This document shows, piece after piece, positions 23,601 through 31,620 of a stretch of DNA of 64,000 nt. This stretch comes from Streptomyces sp. CGMCC 4.7035 (GTDB taxonomy: Bacteria > Actinomycetota > Actinomycetes > Streptomycetales > Streptomycetaceae), in contig NZ_CP134053.1 of the NCBI RefSeq assembly GCF_031583065.1, forward strand, positions 5,125,001-5,189,000, read 5' to 3'. Every line of letters starts with the position of its first letter. Positions within the stretch are counted from its first letter, which is position 1. The notes beneath the pieces were generated by a model that was not told the origin of the DNA, did no database searches, and saw only the letters and a program-made list of their open reading frames with translations. The position numbers were made by a program, and so were the translations under genes.

Positions 23601-26600
23601 CTACGCGGGCCGTTTGAACATCCGTGTCGCCGTGATCTCGCTGTGCACTGCTTCTCCGCCCTGGGGCTGCTGCGGCAGTCCGGGCCGGAGGTGTTCCTCC
23701 ACGCGGATGTACTTCAGTCCGGCCCGCAGGTCGGCGTCGTTGCGCAGCCGGATGACCAGCGGGAACTCGGCGAGCGCGGTCGTGTCGAACAGGCCGGTGG
23801 TGTAGAGGAGCTGGACGCCCAGCGCGTCCGAGACGGCCCGCTGGAGCTCCAGCAGGTACGTCGCGTTGGCGCGCCCGATGGGGTTGTCCAGGAACAGCGT
23901 GCCCGCGTGGCGGTGCTTGTCGCGGCCTCGGTCGTTGGAGCGCAGCGCGGCCATCGTGCAGTACAGCGCGATGGCGGCGGTGAGCAGCTGCCCGCCCGAG
24001 AAGACGTCGCCCATCTGCCCGACCGGCACGCGCTCAGCGCGCAGCACGGCGTCGGGCTTCAGGATCTCGACGGCGATGCCCTTTGGCTGGAGCGCCGCGC
24101 TGACTCCCCTCAGGAGCAGGGACATGCCGTCGCGGCGCAGGTCGGAGTTCTTCCTGACGGCCGCGCGGGTCGCCTCGTCGATGACCTCGCCGAGCCGTTC
24201 GACGAGCGTGGCCTGGTCTGGCTCCTCGAACCGGATCCGCAGGAACTCCTGCCCGGACCATTCGCCCAGCCCCTCGGGGAGCCGGGAGAGCCGCTGTGCC
24301 GACCGCAGCGTGGCCAGGGCCGACTCGACCAGTCCCCGCAGCCGGTCCACGATCGAGTCCCGGTTGCGCTCCAGCTGCGCCAACTCGTCGGTCAGCACGC
24401 GCAGCCGGGGTGCGAAGGCCTCCGCCCACCGCTGGGCGTGCTCCGGCAGCGCGGACGCGGGCAGTTCGCGGATCTGCTGCCGGGCGGGGGTGCGGACGTG
24501 CTCGTACCGGGTGGAGTTGGCGTGCCGTACGAGGACATCGCTCGCCTCACGCACGGCGGCCTCGGCGGCGGACAGATCGCCGGCGCAGCCGCGCAGCGAG
24601 CGGCGGGCCTCGGCGGCGGCCTGCCGGGCCTCTTCCAGCGTGCCGGGGTAGGGCTCGGGCGCTTCCTGCTCCTCGTCCGTGGTGTGCTCGCGCAGCAGGT
24701 CACGAAGCATCGCGGCGATCTCGTCGAAGCCGCCGGCGGCGTCCTCGGCCGCCCGATGGGCGTCGAGGAGTTCGGCGTGGGCCTCGCGGGCCTGGCTCAA
24801 TGCCTCGGTGCGGGAGGCAAGTTCGCCGGTGGCCGTGCGCAGCAGGGCCTGGGCGTGCTCGGTGTCCCGGGGGACCAGCTCCTCGGGCAGCTCGGTGTGG
24901 GCCTCGCCGTTCTCCGGCGCGTGCCGCTCGGCCTCGCCGCGAAGCCGGCCGAGCTGCTCGCTCGCCGTGGACATGCGCGTCTCCAGGAGCTGCACCAGCT
25001 CCTCGGCGCGTACGGCGGCGGCCTGCCGGGAGGGGCCGTCGGAGCCGTCCGGGGACTGAAGGAGCTGCTCGGCGCGCGTGCGCACCTTGTTGCTGAGCCG
25101 GTCCAGTTCGGCGAGTGCCGCGGATTCGTCACTCTCGGCCCGTGCCTGCTCGGCCCGCAGGTCGGCACCGACGCCGACCTTCTCGTACACCTGGGAGGCC
25201 GCCCGATAGGCCTCGCGGAGAGCGGGGAGGGACGCCTTCGGCCCGTTCTCGTCGTCCTCCGGTACGTCGTCGGGGGCACCCGCGATCTCCGCGCGCTCGG
25301 CGCGCAGCGCACGCGCCGTGCGGCGGGCGTCGTCGGCGGCGCGCTGGGCGGCCCGCCGGTCCTCGTCGGCGGCTCGGGCGCGCTCCAGACAGGACTGGGC
25401 GCGGGCCTCCGACTCGACCGCCTCGTCGGCGAGTTCACGCAGCTTGACCTGCCATCCGGCGCGTTCGCGCAGTCGGAAGGCGAGTCCGGCGAGCGCGTCG
25501 GCGGCGCGCCGGGCCTTCTGCGCGGCCTCCTGCCGCTCGTCACGCACCTGTGCGGCCTCGGCGGCGGCCTCGTCGGTCTCGGCCCGGACGGTGCGCGCCT
25601 CGGCCAGCTCGGCCTCGGCCTCCTCGGCGAACGCGCGCGCGTCCTGGGCGGCCGCGGCGAGTTCGGTGAGCCGTCCGGCAGGACAGCCGGTGCGCCAGGA
25701 CGCCAGCCGGGCCGCCAGCTCACGGTCCTTGCCGAGCCGGGCCGCCAGCGCCCGGATCTCCTCGTCCCGCTCGGTGGCCCGCGCGCGCAGCGCCTGGCGC
25801 TCCTCGTCGGCGGCGTACTCGTCGTGCATGGCGGGGTTCGGCGGTACGAGGAACACGCCGCTGTCGCCCTCGTCGAGAGCCGGGGTCGGGGCGAGCAGCG
25901 CGGCGGCCGTGCCGACGGCGACGGCTGAACGAGGCAGCAACGCGGCGTCGCTCAGCGCCTCGCGGGCCCGGGCGTGCGAGTCCGGATCCGTGATGATCAC
26001 GCCGTCGACCAGTTCGGGGCGGGCGGCCAGCACGCGCGCGTGGTCGGCGGGGTCGACGGCCTGGGCGAGATAGCGCCAGCCGGGCAGGGCGGGGATGCCG
26101 TGCTCGCCGAGGAACTCGACGGTCGCCAGCACGTCCGGGCCCGGCGGAAGCAGTCCGCCGTCACCGAGCGCGCCGAGGATGCGGGCGTCGTCGGCCGCCG
26201 CGGTCCGCAGCTCGAAGAGCTGCCGCTCGGCGGAGGAGACCGTGTCGTCGAGCAGCTCGCGCAGTTCGTCGGCGAAGCCGTCCAGTTCCTCGGGGGTGAG
26301 GGTGCCCTCTCCCGTTGTCGGAGCGTCGGTCGCGCTCGTGTCCTCGTCACGCCGGGGTCCCGGCACCCGGGTACGGGCGCCGCTTCCCGACAGACTCAGC
26401 AGTTCCGCCAGCCGCTCCTCGGCCGCCAGCGCCTCCGCCGTCCGGCGCTCGCCCTCGTACGCCCGCTCGGCGGCCGTGGCAGCGTCCGCCGCGCGGGCCG
26501 CCGTCAGTTCCGCGCGGGACTCGGCGGAGGCCGCCTCACGCGCGTGCTCGGACGCCCGGCGGGAGGCCTCGCGTGCGGTGTCCCAGGCCGCGACGGCCGT

Positions 26601-28229
26601 TTTCTCGGCGTCGCTGGCGGCGAGCGCGGCCCGCGCCGGGTCCGCGTCGGGTGCGGTGTCGTCCAGCCAGCCCGCGCGCACGGCCTCGGCGGTCTCCTGC
26701 TCGACCTCGCTGAGGCGCTGGCGCAGGTGTCCGGCCTCGCTGCGGGCGCGCTGCGCCTCGGTGGCGGCGGCGGTCGAGTCCCGGTACGCGGACTCACCGA
26801 CCTCCTGGAGCGCGGCGGACCGCTCCTCCTCCTCGTTGGCGAGGGTCTCGGCGCTCTCGGCGGCCGCGTGCAGCGCCCGTACGAGATCGACGGCGGCCTT
26901 GGCGCGGGCCGCGAGCGCCGGCGCGGCGTCCCGCTCGGCCTCACGGATCGCGGCGGCCACGCGCGCGGAGCGGTCGGCGGCGGCGCGGTGCCGCAGCACG
27001 GCCTCGGCGGCCTGCCACGCGGAGTACAGCTGGCGCGCGTCGGCCAGCTCGCGCTTCTGCGCCGCGGCGGCCTTCTCGGCGCCGGCCAGCGCCAGCGAGG
27101 CGTGCCGGTAGGCGAGTTCGGCCGCGACCAGCGCAGTGCGCTCCCTGGCACCTTCGGCATGCGTGACCGTGTACGCGGCGGCGGTCACCCGCTGGGCCAG
27201 GTCGGCGGCGCGTACCCGCTCCCGCACTCCGCGCGCGGACAGTCGCCGGGCCAGCGTGCGCGTCCGCCGCTCGGCGCCCGCGTGGACGTCCCGCGCCCGC
27301 GCCCGCGCCTCGGCGGCGTCGACGATGCGCCCGAGCAGGTCCACCGACCCGGCGGTGAAATCGCGTTCGGCGATCAGCTCGGAACGTCGCCCCAGCTTGT
27401 TGCCGAAACCGCTGACCAGGTCGGCGAGTCCGTCGGTGTCCCGGGTGTCGGTGACGGCGCGCAGCAGCAGGTCCGTGAAGTCGGAGTCCTTCTTGACCGC
27501 GAAGAGACCGGCGGCCTCGCCCTCGTCGGCGTTCATCTCCCGCTGGTAGCGGAAGAGTTCCGGGTCAAGGCCCAGGTCCGTCAGATGCTCGTTCCAGCGG
27601 TCGTGGATCTCCTCCCAGTGCACTTCGAGGTGCGGGTACGCCTTGCCCGCCTCCGTGAGGGCGTCCCGGAAGCCCTTCATCGTGCGGCGCCGCCCCTGCG
27701 CCCCGGAGGCGCCCTCGACGGGCGGCCGTACGGCGGTGGACTCGGCCACCGGCAGATTGTCGAGGCTGAGGCCGGGGCCCGGCCGGAAGGAGTACCAGGC
27801 CTCCGCGAACTTCCGCGGGTCGTTGGACACCTGCCGCCCGCGCCACTCGCTCACCTTGCCGACCACGACGCACTCGCCGGTCAGCGTGTGCTGCCACTCC
27901 AGGGCGACATGTCCGCAGTCGTCGGCGAGCAGGAACTTGCGCAGCACACCGGAGCTGGCGCCGCCGAGTGTGTTGCGGTGGCCCGGCAGCATCACCGAGA
28001 AGATCAACTTGAGCAGGACGGACTTGCCGCCGCCGTTCTCCAGGAAGAGCACGCCCGCGGGTGCGGGCCGGCGGGGCGGTCCGGCCGGCTCCTCCTCGAA
28101 GAACTCCGCCTGGATGGGCGCGGGGTCGGGTACCGGATCACCCACACCCCGCAGGTCCAGCACGGTGTCGGCGTAGCGCGCACCGGCCGGGCCGATGGAG
28201 TAGAGGCGGACCCGGGACAGCTCGTACAT
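23601..28229 (-). CDS. SMC/MukB-like ATPase with very long coiled coil (JetC/MksB-like)
   Basis: A 1542-residue protein built like an SMC-type ATPase: N-terminal Walker A (FLENGGGKSVLLK, residues about 63-75), a central region of about 1100 residues of Ala/Glu/Arg-rich coiled coil interrupted near residue 650-760 by a globular hinge-like part (GIPALPGWRYLAQAVDPADH), and a C-terminal head with the ABC signature VFSGGQ and Walker B TLFLDNP. After Walker B comes Asn instead of the usual Glu. It is the third gene of an operon with kleisin-like and MukE-like genes, which matches MukBEF/MksBEF and Wadjet JetABC. I expect it to bind and move along DNA with its partners. It does not resemble chromosomal SMC, RecN or SbcC closely. 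The exact family name is not established. Confidence 0.8.
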   Translation of the reverse strand: MYELSRVRLYSIGPAGARYADTVLDLRGVGDPVPDPAPIQAEFFEEEPAGPPRRPAPAGVLFLENGGGKSVLLKLIFSVMLPGHRNTLGGASSGVLRKFLLADDCGHVALEWQHTLTGECVVVGKVSEWRGRQVSNDPRKFAEAWYSFRPGPGLSLDNLPVAESTAVRPPVEGASGAQGRRRTMKGFRDALTEAGKAYPHLEVHWEEIHDRWNEHLTDLGLDPELFRYQREMNADEGEAAGLFAVKKDSDFTDLLLRAVTDTRDTDGLADLVSGFGNKLGRRSELIAERDFTAGSVDLLGRIVDAAEARARARDVHAGAERRTRTLARRLSARGVRERVRAADLAQRVTAAAYTVTHAEGARERTALVAAELAYRHASLALAGAEKAAAAQKRELADARQLYSAWQAAEAVLRHRAAADRSARVAAAIREAERDAAPALAARAKAAVDLVRALHAAAESAETLANEEEERSAALQEVGESAYRDSTAAATEAQRARSEAGHLRQRLSEVEQETAEAVRAGWLDDTAPDADPARAALAASDAEKTAVAAWDTAREASRRASEHAREAASAESRAELTAARAADAATAAERAYEGERRTAEALAAEERLAELLSLSGSGARTRVPGPRRDEDTSATDAPTTGEGTLTPEELDGFADELRELLDDTVSSAERQLFELRTAAADDARILGALGDGGLLPPGPDVLATVEFLGEHGIPALPGWRYLAQAVDPADHARVLAARPELVDGVIITDPDSHARAREALSDAALLPRSAVAVGTAAALLAPTPALDEGDSGVFLVPPNPAMHDEYAADEERQALRARATERDEEIRALAARLGKDRELAARLASWRTGCPAGRLTELAAAAQDARAFAEEAEAELAEARTVRAETDEAAAEAAQVRDERQEAAQKARRAADALAGLAFRLRERAGWQVKLRELADEAVESEARAQSCLERARAADEDRRAAQRAADDARRTARALRAERAEIAGAPDDVPEDDENGPKASLPALREAYRAASQVYEKVGVGADLRAEQARAESDESAALAELDRLSNKVRTRAEQLLQSPDGSDGPSRQAAAVRAEELVQLLETRMSTASEQLGRLRGEAERHAPENGEAHTELPEELVPRDTEHAQALLRTATGELASRTEALSQAREAHAELLDAHRAAEDAAGGFDEIAAMLRDLLREHTTDEEQEAPEPYPGTLEEARQAAAEARRSLRGCAGDLSAAEAAVREASDVLVRHANSTRYEHVRTPARQQIRELPASALPEHAQRWAEAFAPRLRVLTDELAQLERNRDSIVDRLRGLVESALATLRSAQRLSRLPEGLGEWSGQEFLRIRFEEPDQATLVERLGEVIDEATRAAVRKNSDLRRDGMSLLLRGVSAALQPKGIAVEILKPDAVLRAERVPVGQMGDVFSGGQLLTAAIALYCTMAALRSNDRGRDKHRHAGTLFLDNPIGRANATYLLELQRAVSDALGVQLLYTTGLFDTTALAEFPLVIRLRNDADLRAGLKYIRVEEHLRPGLPQQPQGGEAVHSEITATRMFKRPA

Positions 28230-28302
28230 GGCGGCGGACTCTCGTCGTGATTCTTGCTAAGTCTTCGGAAACGTGGGGGGAAGTTCGGAAGCCGCGGGGG
28301 CT

Positions 28303-29190
28303 TCAGGAGCTTCCGGAGTGGAACGGCAGTCCGGCGTCGGCCACCAGCTCCAAGTCGTCGGTGTGCTCGGCGGGCAGCAGACTCGCGGTGCCGTCGGTCA
28401 CCGGAACGACGCCCAGTTCGAGGAGTTCGGCCATGGCGGCGGTGCCCGCCATGTCGCGGACCTGGAGCTGGTAGCGGGCCGTCGTGCGGTACGTGCCGCC
28501 GTTGTCGTCGCCCGTGCGCTGCAGGAACCCGGAGTCGGTGAGGAACGCGGCGGCCTTGCCGACGATGCCGGTGGTCGAACCTGCCAGCCTGCGCGCGTCC
28601 TTGGTGGCCCCGGTAGCGCTGCGTCTGGCCCAGATGCGCCAGGCCGCCTCAAGGCCCGGCGCGTCCGTCGCCGGGTCGGTGTTCTCGCCCTGCTCCTCCG
28701 CCCGCTCCTCCAGACGACGGCAGGCCTGGCGTACGAAGGCATCGACGCCGTTGACCGTGACACGCCCGATGTAGCCGTCGTCGGCGAGGTCCTCGGGGCG
28801 CGGGAACGCCAGGGCCGCGACGGCGAGGTGCGCGAGCCCGTGCAAAAAGCGGTCCCCGGAGTCGGCCGACGTGCGACGCGCGTAGTCACCCATACGGACG
28901 GCGAACACGGAGTCCTCGGCCGCGGTCACGGCCATGCCCGCGCGCGGGGACACCTCCAGGACGACAAGACCGAGCCCGGTCGCGACGGCGTCGGCGAGCC
29001 GTGCGAACGGCGGGTCCTCGCGGTAGCGGCGCAGCAGTTCCGCGTACTCCTGGTCGCGCGCGGGCTGCAGCTTGGGCTGCAGCCCGAAGGCGACGAGCCG
29101 CGCCGCGTCGGCGGCGTCGGCGGGGGTGACGGCGGCACTCACGGGCGCGGCGGCGGCCTCCGGCTCACTCCAGTCGACTTGCTCGGTCAC
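28303..29190 (-). CDS. MukE/JetB-like partner protein of the SMC operon
   Basis: A 295-residue acidic protein. Residues 190-255 read like a winged helix (STTGIVGKAAAFLTDSGFLQ, then a hairpin with YRTTARYQLQVRDMAG), as expected for a MukE/MksE/JetB subunit. No transmembrane segment or catalytic motif is seen. It is the middle gene, 37 bp after the kleisin-like gene and 73 bp before the SMC-like gene, all on one strand. It starts at GTG. The role as accessory subunit is inferred mainly from gene order, size and the wHTH-like segment, not from a recognised signature. Confidence 0.65.
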   Translation of the reverse strand: MTEQVDWSEPEAAAAPVSAAVTPADAADAARLVAFGLQPKLQPARDQEYAELLRRYREDPPFARLADAVATGLGLVVLEVSPRAGMAVTAAEDSVFAVRMGDYARRTSADSGDRFLHGLAHLAVAALAFPRPEDLADDGYIGRVTVNGVDAFVRQACRRLEERAEEQGENTDPATDAPGLEAAWRIWARRSATGATKDARRLAGSTTGIVGKAAAFLTDSGFLQRTGDDNGGTYRTTARYQLQVRDMAGTAAMAELLELGVVPVTDGTASLLPAEHTDDLELVADAGLPFHSGSS

Positions 29191-29227
29191 GGTTGCGGCT
29201 CCTTGCTGCGCTGATACTGGTTGCTGC

Positions 29228-30754
29228 TCATGCTGCTTCCGTCCGGTCCGCAGCCATTCCCGCCGCGTCCAGCAGAGCCGTGCCGACGATCAGATCCGCA
29301 CCGCCGAACTCCGGATCGTCCAGCTCCGTGCCGTCGTCCACGGCGAACAGCAGCTTCTCCTCGCCCTGCCGGTAAGCCGTGCCGACCGGCGGGCTGGCCG
29401 CGTGCACGGCCAACAGGGCGACGAGATACGGCAGTTCGGGATCCCGGCGGCGTGCCTCCGCGAGCAGTCCGGACAGCCGGCGGGGCGCGTCGGCCGGCAG
29501 ATCGAGCAGCTCCATGGCGGCGGCCAGCTGGTCCTCGCTGAACCGGCTGTCGTCCGGCGTGGCGATCAGATCCGGCTCGGGCATCTCGGCCCCGAGGTGC
29601 TCACGCTCCATCGGAGGCGTCAGCAGCAGCTCGACGAGGTCCCCGACGCGCACGGACGCGGGTGTGCGCAGCCCCGTCCCGCGCGCGAAGAAGGCGTCCG
29701 TGACGCGCATCGCCTGCTCCAGGGGGAGGGGCAGCACCGGCGCCACGAGGTGCCCGTACAGATCTATTCCCGATGTCGTCATCGGCGTGGCGAACGCCTG
29801 CCGGTCCTGCTCGGCGCGGAACAGCGGGCCCGCCTCCAGGAGCCGCGACTGCAGCTGCGTGTGCCTGCGGATGCAGTCCTTGACGATGTCGACGAGCTCG
29901 GCGGCGCGCCGCTTCTGCTCGGCGTCCTCGGACTCGTCCCGGGCCTTGCGGATGTTGGTGAGGATCGCGTTCTCGTGGCGGTAGCGGTCGGCCACGTGGT
30001 CGAGGGCCTCGGCGATCATGTCCGGCACCGTGTTGAGCCAGTCCACCGCCCGGACGTTGCGCCGGGTCGCCTCCAGGGCCCTGCGCAGCGACTCCGAGTA
30101 CTGCACGGTCCGGTAGCGCGCCTGCTCGGCGGCGAGCTGGGCGTCGGCCAGGCGACCGCGGCTGATCAGCACCTCCAGCTTGACCTCGGCGGCGATCTGC
30201 GCGCTGGTGACGTCCGTGTCGAGGGCACCGACGAGGACGTTGACCGCCTCGTCCGTCGTGCGGAGGTAGACGCTTCCGCCGTACCCCGGCACCTCTTCGA
30301 TCAGCTTGAAGTCGTAGTCACGACGGACATATGTGCCATCCGGAGCAAACGTGCCATATGCGGCACGGAACCCGCGGTCGACGCTGCCGACGTTGATCAG
30401 GTTCTCCAGGACCCAGCGGGCCACGCGCTCATGCTCGGCGACGGGGCGCCGCGGGCCCTGGGCGGCGATGCGCGGAATGAGGCGGGCGACGATCTGGTCG
30501 TGGTCCGCGCCGGTGTCGAAGTCCATGTTCAGCGTGACCAGGTCGATGGCGGCGAGGGCGATCTCCGCCATCCCGTACACGGAGTACTCACCCGCGAGGT
30601 TCGCCTTGCGCGCGTCCAGGTCGTGGATCGGCGCGGTACAGGCGAGCGCGCGCAGCCGCCGCGCCAGCCCCTCGTCGGCGGCCGGGCCCGGAGCAGGGCG
30701 CGGCCCCGCGCTGAGCTGGGGCGGAACACGGTCCGTCGATGCAGGCGAAGTCAC
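29228..30754 (-). CDS. Kleisin-like (MukF/MksF/JetA-like) subunit of the SMC operon
   Basis: A 508-residue, mostly helical protein. Residues about 100-170 look like a winged helix ending in SVYLRTTDEAVNVLVGAL, followed by a long helical stretch (about 175-320) of the kind that in MukF/JetA forms the neck-binding and middle region, and a C-terminal globular part. A MukF-like architecture fits the first-gene position before a MukE-like and an SMC-like gene. The start is probably GTG at 30754 (TSPASTDRV); TTG at 30784 is possible and adds ten residues. It lies 152 bp after the GntR gene on the same strand, so co-transcription with that regulator cannot be excluded. No nuclease or TOPRIM motif is present. 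Confidence 0.68.
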   Translation of the reverse strand: MTSPASTDRVPPQLSAGPRPAPGPAADEGLARRLRALACTAPIHDLDARKANLAGEYSVYGMAEIALAAIDLVTLNMDFDTGADHDQIVARLIPRIAAQGPRRPVAEHERVARWVLENLINVGSVDRGFRAAYGTFAPDGTYVRRDYDFKLIEEVPGYGGSVYLRTTDEAVNVLVGALDTDVTSAQIAAEVKLEVLISRGRLADAQLAAEQARYRTVQYSESLRRALEATRRNVRAVDWLNTVPDMIAEALDHVADRYRHENAILTNIRKARDESEDAEQKRRAAELVDIVKDCIRRHTQLQSRLLEAGPLFRAEQDRQAFATPMTTSGIDLYGHLVAPVLPLPLEQAMRVTDAFFARGTGLRTPASVRVGDLVELLLTPPMEREHLGAEMPEPDLIATPDDSRFSEDQLAAAMELLDLPADAPRRLSGLLAEARRRDPELPYLVALLAVHAASPPVGTAYRQGEEKLLFAVDDGTELDDPEFGGADLIVGTALLDAAGMAADRTEAA

Positions 30755-30906
30755 GGTGCACAGATTAGGTCCTCGGTCTGACAACAGCCCAAACGGAAGC
30801 GCTCCGCCGGGAGAGCCAGGGAACCGCGGGTCGTTTTCCCGGGGCGGGCCGTCGCGGCTGGTCGCGCCCCGCGGCGGAGCCGCACGATGTCACGGCCCCG
30901 CACCCC

Positions 30907-31620
30907 TTACGGGGCGCTCCCCCTCTGGCCCTCATCGGCCATCCGGCGTCCGTACGCCTCGACCAGACCCGCCCGCGAGTCGTCGAGGTAGGCCGCGAGC
31001 TGGTGCTCGGCGCGGTCGCGGTCGCCCGCCTGGAGTGTTTCGAGGATCTGCTGGTTGCGTGCGAGGTACGGCTCGTGCAGGCGGCGCGGGTCCGCCACCA
31101 CGTGGAAGGCCAGGCGCAGTTCGGCGAAGACGCTGCGCATCAGCTCGTCCATGCGTTCGCTGCCCGCGAGCGCCACCAGTTCCCGATGGAACTGGATGTT
31201 GGCCGTCGACACACCTTTCCAGTCACCTTCGCGCGCCGCCCTCTGCCCCTCCTCGACGGCCCCGGCGAGGCCGTCGAGGGCGTACGGCGGCTCGCCGAGA
31301 CCTCGTACGACGGCGCACTCGACGAGGCTGCGGGTGCGGTGGATGTCCTCGACGTCCTCGACGGTCAGCACGCGCACGAAGACGCCGCGGTTCAACTCGT
31401 GGACGAGCAGCCTCTCGTGCGTGAGCAGCCGGAACGCCTCGCGCAGCGTGTTGCGGGACACACCGAGCGCGCCGCCGATGCTGTCCTCCGAGAGCCGGGA
31501 GCCGGGCGGGAAGTAGCCCTCGGCGATACGGCTCCTGAGGATGTCCGCCACCCGCTCGGCGGTGCTGGTGCGCCCCAGCAGGGCCCGATCGTCGGCCAGT
31601 CCTGCCGGCTGCTCTGCCAT
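30907..31620 (-). CDS. GntR-family regulator, FadR/FCD subfamily
   Basis: A 237-residue regulator with an N-terminal winged helix (residues about 18-80, with LSEDSIGGALGVSRNTLREA) and a C-terminal FCD ligand domain (about 95-225) with the metal-binding pattern in FHRELVALAGS and EHQLAAYL. FCD regulators usually respond to small organic acids. The gene is divergent from pxpABC, and the 234-bp gap holds a perfect 19-bp palindrome. Control of the 5-oxoprolinase operon, and of itself, is the natural inference. The start ATG begins MAEQPAG; no strong ribosome binding site precedes it. Confidence 0.88.
   Translation of the reverse strand: MAEQPAGLADDRALLGRTSTAERVADILRSRIAEGYFPPGSRLSEDSIGGALGVSRNTLREAFRLLTHERLLVHELNRGVFVRVLTVEDVEDIHRTRSLVECAVVRGLGEPPYALDGLAGAVEEGQRAAREGDWKGVSTANIQFHRELVALAGSERMDELMRSVFAELRLAFHVVADPRRLHEPYLARNQQILETLQAGDRDRAEHQLAAYLDDSRAGLVEAYGRRMADEGQRGSAP

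Follow-up and report, generated by a model that had tools for sequence, protein, structure and literature searches.

A Wadjet type III-related SMC operon without detectable JetD in Streptomyces, preceded by a promoter motif shared with DNA repair genes

In Wadjet, loop extrusion by JetABC is followed by activation of JetD, which then cuts the DNA (PMC12647877). A three-gene operon in Streptomyces sp. CGMCC 4.7035 raises the question of what such a complex does when no JetD gene accompanies it. The operon lies in a 64,000-nucleotide stretch of the chromosome, here termed the window. The accessible text of a 2023 review treats it as a paradox that chromosome folding and immunity can both be tasks of identical or closely related SMC complexes (PMC10586767). 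Searches of an open-access library brought up no description of a nuclease-free JetABC set in Streptomyces. PADLOC, according to the accessible part of its description, reports MukFEB-like sets as Wadjet 'other' (PMC9252829), and such loci may therefore already be listed there without comment.

The operon consists of three collinear open reading frames on the minus strand, all with coding-like codon usage:

29228..30754, minus strand: jetA-like gene, MukF/JetA-type kleisin, 508 aa, GTG start
28303..29190, minus strand: jetB-like gene, MukE/JetB-type (KITE) winged-helix subunit, 295 aa, GTG start after AAGGAG
23601..28229, minus strand: jetC-like gene, SMC/MukB-type ATPase, 1542 aa, assigned on the basis of PADLOC JetC3

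The identical gene trio and order recur in most relatives whose flanking sequences were fetched, and the three-gene block is therefore beyond chance; the original prediction of an operon ending in a 1542-residue ATPase is borne out. A longer jetA reading frame with a TTG start reaches 30784, but it enters a conserved promoter block, so that 30754, the operon end first proposed, is the preferred start. The ATPase N-terminal sequence quoted at that time, FLENGGGKSVLLK, is present at residues 62-74 of the 1542-aa protein.

At the level of subunit identity, the ATPase matches the PADLOC JetC3 model PDLC00588 with 1411.4 bits and the kleisin matches the JetA3 model PDLC00567 with 618.9 bits. The operon is therefore not an unknown SMC family, and the early impression that the ATPase resembles no recognised family does not hold. 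Nor is the ATPase an ordinary SbcC or RecN, since it has no match in Pfam or NCBIfam at E values up to 1. JetB gives no match to PADLOC JetB3; the same model finds three of four JetB proteins from JetD-bearing loci only at E 0.002-0.02 and misses the fourth. At E up to 10, JetA had no sequence match among solved structures; JetC had none at E up to 1, and JetB drew only weak, unrelated rows. The predicted JetA structure is MukF-like and that of JetB is nearest to MukE/JetB chains; both matches are modest, the closest neighbours are MukBEF/MukEF entries, and the assignment of the matched chains as MukF or MukE was judged from chain length. Profiles and models agree with the gene order and folds JetA-JetB-JetC/MukF-MukE-MukB that had been proposed.

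Three short motifs mark the ATPase:

28020..28040, minus strand: ENGGGKS, JetC residues 64-70, which we take to be the Walker A motif; no position below 95% identity across the 70 core rows
23988..24002, minus strand: FSGGQ, JetC residues 1410-1414, presumably the ABC signature; no position below 95% identity across the 70 core rows
23880..23897, minus strand: LFLDNP, JetC residues 1445-1450, Walker B, from the core JetC alignment

The core (nuclease-free) alignment comprises 70 JetC rows without stop codons, 69 of them distinct and the window's JetC included. SMC proteins usually have a glutamate at the Walker B position where LFLDNP has an asparagine. The same asparagine is found in JetD-bearing copies, as is ENGGGKS.

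An SMC ATPase with intact motifs, a kleisin and a KITE subunit are encoded together in one operon, the arrangement of condensin-type complexes such as MukBEF and MksBEF. Relative to MukBEF, the structural neighbours are shared, but neither JetA nor JetC has a sequence match among solved chains, and the lineage by profile is that of Wadjet type III. MksBEF and MksBEFG are likewise built on a three-subunit MukBEF-like complex; however, MksB of C. glutamicum is given as 1111 aa in the accessible source text, compared with 1542 aa for the ATPase here, and the present operon matches JetC3 profiles and bears a damage-type promoter. The accessible text on these systems states that P. aeruginosa MksBEF is assumed to organise the chromosome and that C. 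glutamicum MksBEFG acts on plasmids (PMC7083940); strains of Pseudomonas such as PA14 are described, again in accessible text, as having an additional operon with mksG (PMC10123090). With Wadjet type III the operon shares the JetA3 and JetC3 matches, a MukE/JetB-like middle subunit and the order A-B-C, and its identity as a Wadjet type III relative is well supported. It differs from Wadjet type III in that JetD is not found, in its near-universal and vertical inheritance, and in being ∼25-60% identical to JetD-bearing copies.

The absence of JetD, first noted for the immediate neighbourhood, extends to the whole genome. No JetD was found beside the operon, and PF09983, a JetD3 protein query (which proves little when taken alone) and PADLOC JetD3 were all without a match in the genome, which speaks against a JetD hidden elsewhere. 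PF09983 is too weak as the sole test, since it scores the JetD of locus L011 at only E 0.14, and PDLC00594 was therefore added. A home-made JetD profile also gave no matches over the core loci, whereas JetD-bearing copies match it at E 1e-36 or better. The profile used was a trimmed one, an earlier version having been dropped after it picked up a frame that overlaps the 3′ end of jetC.

The gene set itself is nearly ubiquitous. JetA is present in 386 of 392 sampled Streptomyces genomes, and JetB in 371 of 384. Among 150 genomes from the family Streptomycetaceae, 148 have JetA; outside the family the JetA set was found in two of 24 genomes, both with distant copies. JetD, counted as a match to either PF09983 or PADLOC JetD3, was found in 57 of the 392 Streptomyces genomes and not in the other 335. 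A strong JetD3 match (E under 1e-40) occurs in 32 genomes, and all 32 also carry a JetA of the core type, at E 1.3e-280 or better. JetD-bearing type III systems in the genus are sporadic extra copies. A nuclease linked elsewhere had been named as grounds for abandoning the original prediction; such a linkage does exist, but in these separate, divergent copies, and the loci of the present orthologue lack JetD. The three-gene block is thus kept without JetD across the genus.

In the JetA tree, the 25 core rows group together as a single clade (100/100) amid branches that bear JetD. dN/dS is 0.05-0.22 against 11 Streptomyces and 0.24-0.41 against Yinghuangia. The nuclease-free set is a single family-wide clade under purifying selection, and loss of the JetD nuclease from the Streptomyces core set is well supported.

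Upstream of jetA there is a motif that the original prediction missed and that provides the best clue to function:

30762..30783, minus strand: RecA-NDp/PafBC-type promoter motif TGTCAG-10N-TAATCT, exact match to the published motif; coordinates give its footprint

The motif matches the published RecA-NDp sequence TGTCAG-10N-TA-3N-T exactly (accessible text of PMC8151990) and agrees in spacing with tTGTCRgtg-8nt-TannnT (accessible text of PMC5656591). It ends 7 nt upstream of the jetA GTG in a leaderless-type layout, the same distance as at recA in this genome. TGTCRG-10N-TA-3N-T is found in 104 of 120 distinct core jetA upstream regions (mean of 0.0 in shuffled sequences, none on the reverse strand), and it is the only conserved regulatory signal found there. 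Genome-wide there are 97 sites, versus nine for the reversed pattern, and these precede recA, uvrA, uvrB, uvrC, radA, recQ, sbcD, ruvC and others, as well as the genes for XseA and a PD-(D/E)XK nuclease. ssDNA activates PafBC, according to accessible text (PMC11804915), and the accessible portions of the cited PafBC literature name no SMC complex as a member of the regulon. A study in S. venezuelae found that the M. smegmatis PafBC motif is seemingly not conserved there (PMC9380542). The present sequences suggest that jetABC is induced by DNA damage.

The distribution of the motif shows some variation. Two early-branching members, Yinghuangia L215 and L140, show no copy even under relaxed matching, and L143-L146 have it; JetD-less copies outside Streptomycetaceae have it in none of five cases. 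Ten of 37 non-core upstream regions (35 with JetD, two undecided) carry it, and the damage promoter is therefore not unique to nuclease-free copies. For this reason damage induction alone does not imply a chromosomal role.

Of the two neighbours of the operon first described, the GntR regulator stands:

30907..31620, minus strand: GntR/FCD regulator (Pfam GntR and FCD), outside the operon, in 40 of 66 core loci over 18 kb

The small membrane protein is not confirmed: the gene list based on codon usage is empty from 22762, where a nitrate-sensing-type histidine kinase begins, to 23601. Present in only 40 of 66 loci, GntR is unsupported as the operon's regulator. Other neighbours of the operon that recur, over 18 kb, among the 66 core loci are LamB/YcsF (45), a HEAT-like protein (42), the histidine kinase (36), two glycosyltransferases (30 and 27), a GDSL lipase (26) and an ankyrin protein (24); none of those recurring in at least 24 loci resembles a nuclease by Pfam. 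The synteny run gave jetC in 0 of 66 loci, probably an artefact of cut-offs on a low-complexity coiled coil, since other locus searches do find jetC.

The reading that is somewhat favoured is that of a nuclease-free loop extruder, derived from Wadjet III, that Streptomycetaceae have fixed as a second condensin, inducible by damage and with a role in chromosomal repair. On this view a full loop-extruding JetA-JetB-JetC complex, descended from Wadjet type III, would have lost JetD on the Streptomycetaceae stem and become fixed beside Smc-ScpAB. Transcribed from a RecA-NDp/PafBC-type promoter, JetABC would be made when ssDNA signals DNA damage. It would most likely entrap and loop damaged or stalled chromosome, so that broken ends or sister arms do not part before they are repaired, by analogy with MukBEF, MksBEF and Smc5/6, which act on their own chromosomes. 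Perhaps, at a little short of an even chance, this near-universal SMC of chromosome care is a bacterial counterpart of Smc5/6, a formerly plasmid-killing Wadjet III that discarded its nuclease and placed its extruder in the RecA-independent damage regulon, where it corrals damaged arms for repair.

Might JetABC instead still serve immunity? Induced by the ssDNA of invaders or replicating elements, it could recognise plasmid or phage DNA, compact it and block it, or deliver it to those host nucleases that share its regulon. Its closest relatives are indeed JetD-bearing Wadjet III systems, some with the same promoter motif; PafBC responds to ssDNA, and in this genome the motif also precedes genes for repair nucleases, SbcD and XseA among them. 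Yet near-universal vertical presence and dN/dS near 0.1 are unlike the patchy JetD-bearing copies, and all 32 genomes that match JetD3 strongly retain the core JetA as well, which makes an immunity role rather unlikely. It is doubtful that JetABC pairs with an unlinked nuclease in place of JetD, as a Wadjet whose effector has been exchanged. In MksBEFG the nuclease docks on the kleisin, MksG interacting with MksF (accessible text of PMC7083940), and the PD-(D/E)XK nuclease and SbcD lie under the same motif; however, a promoter common to dozens of genes is weak evidence of partnership, and the recurring neighbours offer no nuclease-like Pfam.

A mainly developmental function, in sporulation or the folding of linear chromosome arms with the damage promoter as just one input, would accord with a near-universal set so far known only in Streptomycetaceae and with the use of SMC for spore compaction in Streptomyces (accessible text of PMC13121528), but the damage motif is the sole conserved regulatory signal seen, and this explanation appears improbable. 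Decay to a functionless relic of Wadjet is very improbable. JetD is gone, jetC is interrupted in core loci L141 and L219, and jetA is without nearby jetBC in L016 and L228; against this, motifs and reading frames are intact in the 70 aligned core JetC rows and the promoter is conserved, and the selection data already disfavour a relic.

The repair-associated condensin reading, if correct, would bear on the paradox of SMC complexes that serve both folding and immunity. In the Streptomyces lineage an immunity SMC appears to have shed its weapon and settled into housekeeping as a fixed complex regulated by damage; some of these genomes also contain JetD-bearing relatives, which provide natural controls. 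A 2026 paper about SMC during germination of Streptomyces has 'MksB' once in its accessible text, in a reference, and 'Wadjet' nowhere (PMC13121528). The findings suggest that a defence system was turned into normal chromosome care in Streptomyces, and they would add a second SMC system to this model of how linear chromosomes fold and spores form.

The three-gene operon of the original prediction is borne out, and all of its open reading frames lie on the minus strand:

29228-30754, minus strand, jetA-like gene (kleisin)
28303-29190, minus strand, jetB-like gene (MukE/JetB type)
23601-28229, minus strand, jetC-like gene (SMC/MukB-type ATPase)

Intergenic gaps are 37 nt and 73 nt. The GTG at 30754 was chosen as the jetA start over a longer TTG open reading frame, because the bases between the two form a conserved promoter block.

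JetA is found in all 37 genus genomes of a first sample that counts in the organism itself, and outside the family in 2 of 24 genomes at 32-46% identity. The survey of other Streptomyces that had been proposed confirms wide occurrence: JetA is present in 386/392 genus genomes (378/380 of good quality; E < 1e-250 for 381 of the 386 matches by hand count) and JetB in 371/384, weakly in three (G204, G248, G332). At the family level JetA occurs in 148/150 genomes and all 17 genera are matched, the match in genus g23, a single genome (G424), being weak (E 4.7e-17). Assemblies lacking JetA (six genus, two family) are mostly fragmented, contaminated or incomplete. JetC was tallied in fetched loci of the JetD-less Streptomycetaceae clade, here termed core, that have more than 6 kb past jetA and lie outside a 70-row alignment. 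It is a single long open frame in L163, L170 and L196, is marred by N runs in L017 and L178 and is interrupted in L141 and L219, while jetBC are absent near jetA in L016 and L228; in 50 more core loci the DNA past jetA is too short to assess jetC. Genome G012, the source of L016, has jetB at another place. L228 (1-11479), which is filed as a viral contig, opens with an intact core jetA and has no jetBC behind it, and in L016 (9560-18001) jetB is similarly apart from jetA. These layouts hint that jetA and jetB may have been split by an inserted element.

JetD was not found in the organism's own genome with the Pfam model PF09983, a JetD3 protein or the PADLOC JetD3 model. Across the genus, PF09983, which by itself under-counts type III JetD, matches 43/392 genomes and the PADLOC model PDLC00594 matches 48/392 (32 with E < 1e-40); weak matches may represent other TOPRIM proteins. 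Either model matches 57/392, presuming that both searches covered the same 392 genomes, for which request, size and printed handles agree. On the question of a distant jetD, none was found in this genome nor, by these two models, in 335/392. The genus also has separate JetABC copies with JetD immediately downstream; the ones that can be aligned to the core JetA or JetB share about 25-59% identity with it. Core-type JetA is present in 32/32 genomes with a strong JetD3 match. In the best 80 of 386 relatives, seven copies have JetD alongside (L149 and L150 from Streptomyces, and one each from Nocardia, Pseudonocardia ammonioxydans, a Propionibacteriaceae MAG, Arthrobacter and a Streptosporangiaceae MAG), and JetD was not found beside those of Actinophytocola, two Pseudonocardia, Cellulomonas and Amycolatopsis. 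In Amycolatopsis pithecellobii (L190, 9983-16828) a JetD-less JetABC lies between uvrC-rapZ-yvcK-whiA and gap-pgk-tpi blocks, as judged by eye. JetA relatives occur in five plasmid records, each <60% identical, and in one viral contig (L228, 87% identity); none were found in phage records.

In a JetA tree of 64 hand-chosen rows (25 core, 32 JetD-bearing, 5 other JetD-less, 2 undecided), the core is a single clade with support 100/100 amid JetD-bearing branches. Yinghuangia and relatives form its first split; its exact sister group is unsure because of the midpoint root and the meeting of some long branches. The five non-core JetD-less rows require four changes, i.e. independent losses. The operon is Wadjet-III-derived by descent and not Wadjet by membership, since the defining nuclease JetD was sought and not found. 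Values of dN/dS (Nei-Gojobori) are 0.05-0.22 against 11 Streptomyces relatives and 0.24-0.41 against Yinghuangia. JetC matches in the core exceed the JetD-bearing ones in length (median 1552 vs 1484 aa; maximum 1691 in the aligned set). At a Walker B position (23880-23897) where SMC proteins are expected to carry Glu, JetC of type III carries Asn, whether or not JetD is present. By hand-copied numbers, the locus lies 15-20% from one chromosome end in 12/19 chromosomes, the present genome, at 36%, being among the exceptions. Wadjet has been reported as enriched in Actinobacteria and toward Streptomyces chromosome ends (PMC10482375); the available text of that survey does not mention a JetD-less core copy, and no description of the JetD-less jetABC set was found in the open-access literature searched.

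An alignment of 28 jetA upstream regions reveals CGTTTsG...TGTCAG..N..CCTARTCTGTGCACC, an isolated block that abuts the start codon and above which the DNA is unalignable. The window site (30762-30783, minus strand) fits TGTCAG-10N-TA-3N-T, a form of the PafBC motif reported in M. tuberculosis (PMC8151990), as well as the spacing of tTGTCRgtg-8nt-TannnT (PMC5656591). In 320-nt windows, TGTCRG-10N-TA-3N-T is present in 104/120 distinct core regions (shuffles 0.0, reverse strands 0) and a slightly relaxed form in 110/120 (shuffles 0.2, reverse strands 0); nine of the ten without the latter have TGTCC. Among early-branching loci, L143-L146 have the strict motif, which was not found in L142, L215 and L140. 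It precedes 10 of 37 non-core copies (35 with JetD; two undecided, both without the motif), all ten being JetD-bearing Wadjet III (L108, L110-L113, L115, L120, L126, L137, L203), and 0/5 JetD-less copies outside the family.

The general motif has 97 sites in the genome vs 9 for the reversed pattern, many before repair genes, and the narrower TGTCRG-10N-TARTSTG has 4 vs 0. Of the 97 sites, 94 have a coding-like open reading frame starting within 160 nt, against 57% of random positions, and in 41 the start lies 6 or 7 nt away, against 1.7%; jetA and recA both start at 7 nt. Twenty repair-like downstream proteins, chosen by eye from the 97, were profiled and named by best match, some under the curated cut-off since the fetched stretch truncated them: RadA, RecQ, PcrA, XseA, a UvrD-type helicase, DinG/YoaA, SbcD, Ung, RuvC, UvrC, UvrA, UvrB, Ogt, DnaG, RecD2, a RarA-like protein, a PD-(D/E)XK nuclease, a DarG-like macrodomain, a Hel308-like helicase and a PDZ-Lon protease. 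Both sbcD and recD2 have the jetA site in its TGTCAGACC form. Other sites stand before transporters, TnpB-like genes and unknowns. Eight TnpB-like (IS605 OrfB) genes have the motif (L277, L279, L288, L289, L299, L315, L323, L324), in seven at 7 nt from the start; the likeness was judged by eye, L277 alone being profiled. In S. coelicolor, a macrodomain gene with a RecA-independent damage (RecA-NDp) promoter is known (PMC5087735), and PafB and PafC have been named (PMC6789036).

DNA extrusion in Wadjet is driven by the JetABC motor, and JetD becomes activated when this process has finished (PMC12647877); JetABC without JetD would leave a loop extruder. As ssDNA switches on PafBC (PMC11804915), the complex probably works in the context of replication stress or breaks. 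Together these points favour JetABC as a damage-inducible condensin acting on the chromosome in repair, which would hold or compact it while repair proceeds. Immunity exerted without a nuclease is a less likely alternative. Cooperation with an exchanged nuclease is slightly less probable again; among window neighbours recurring in at least 24 of 66 core loci, Pfam found no nuclease.

Beyond the condensin favoured here, the motif before ten JetD-bearing copies suggests, from sequence, that actinobacterial Wadjet III may be damage-inducible. The genome-wide damage motif set is found in a genus for which the existence of a RecA-NDp/PafBC response was left undecided in the available text of a S. 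venezuelae study (PMC9380542).
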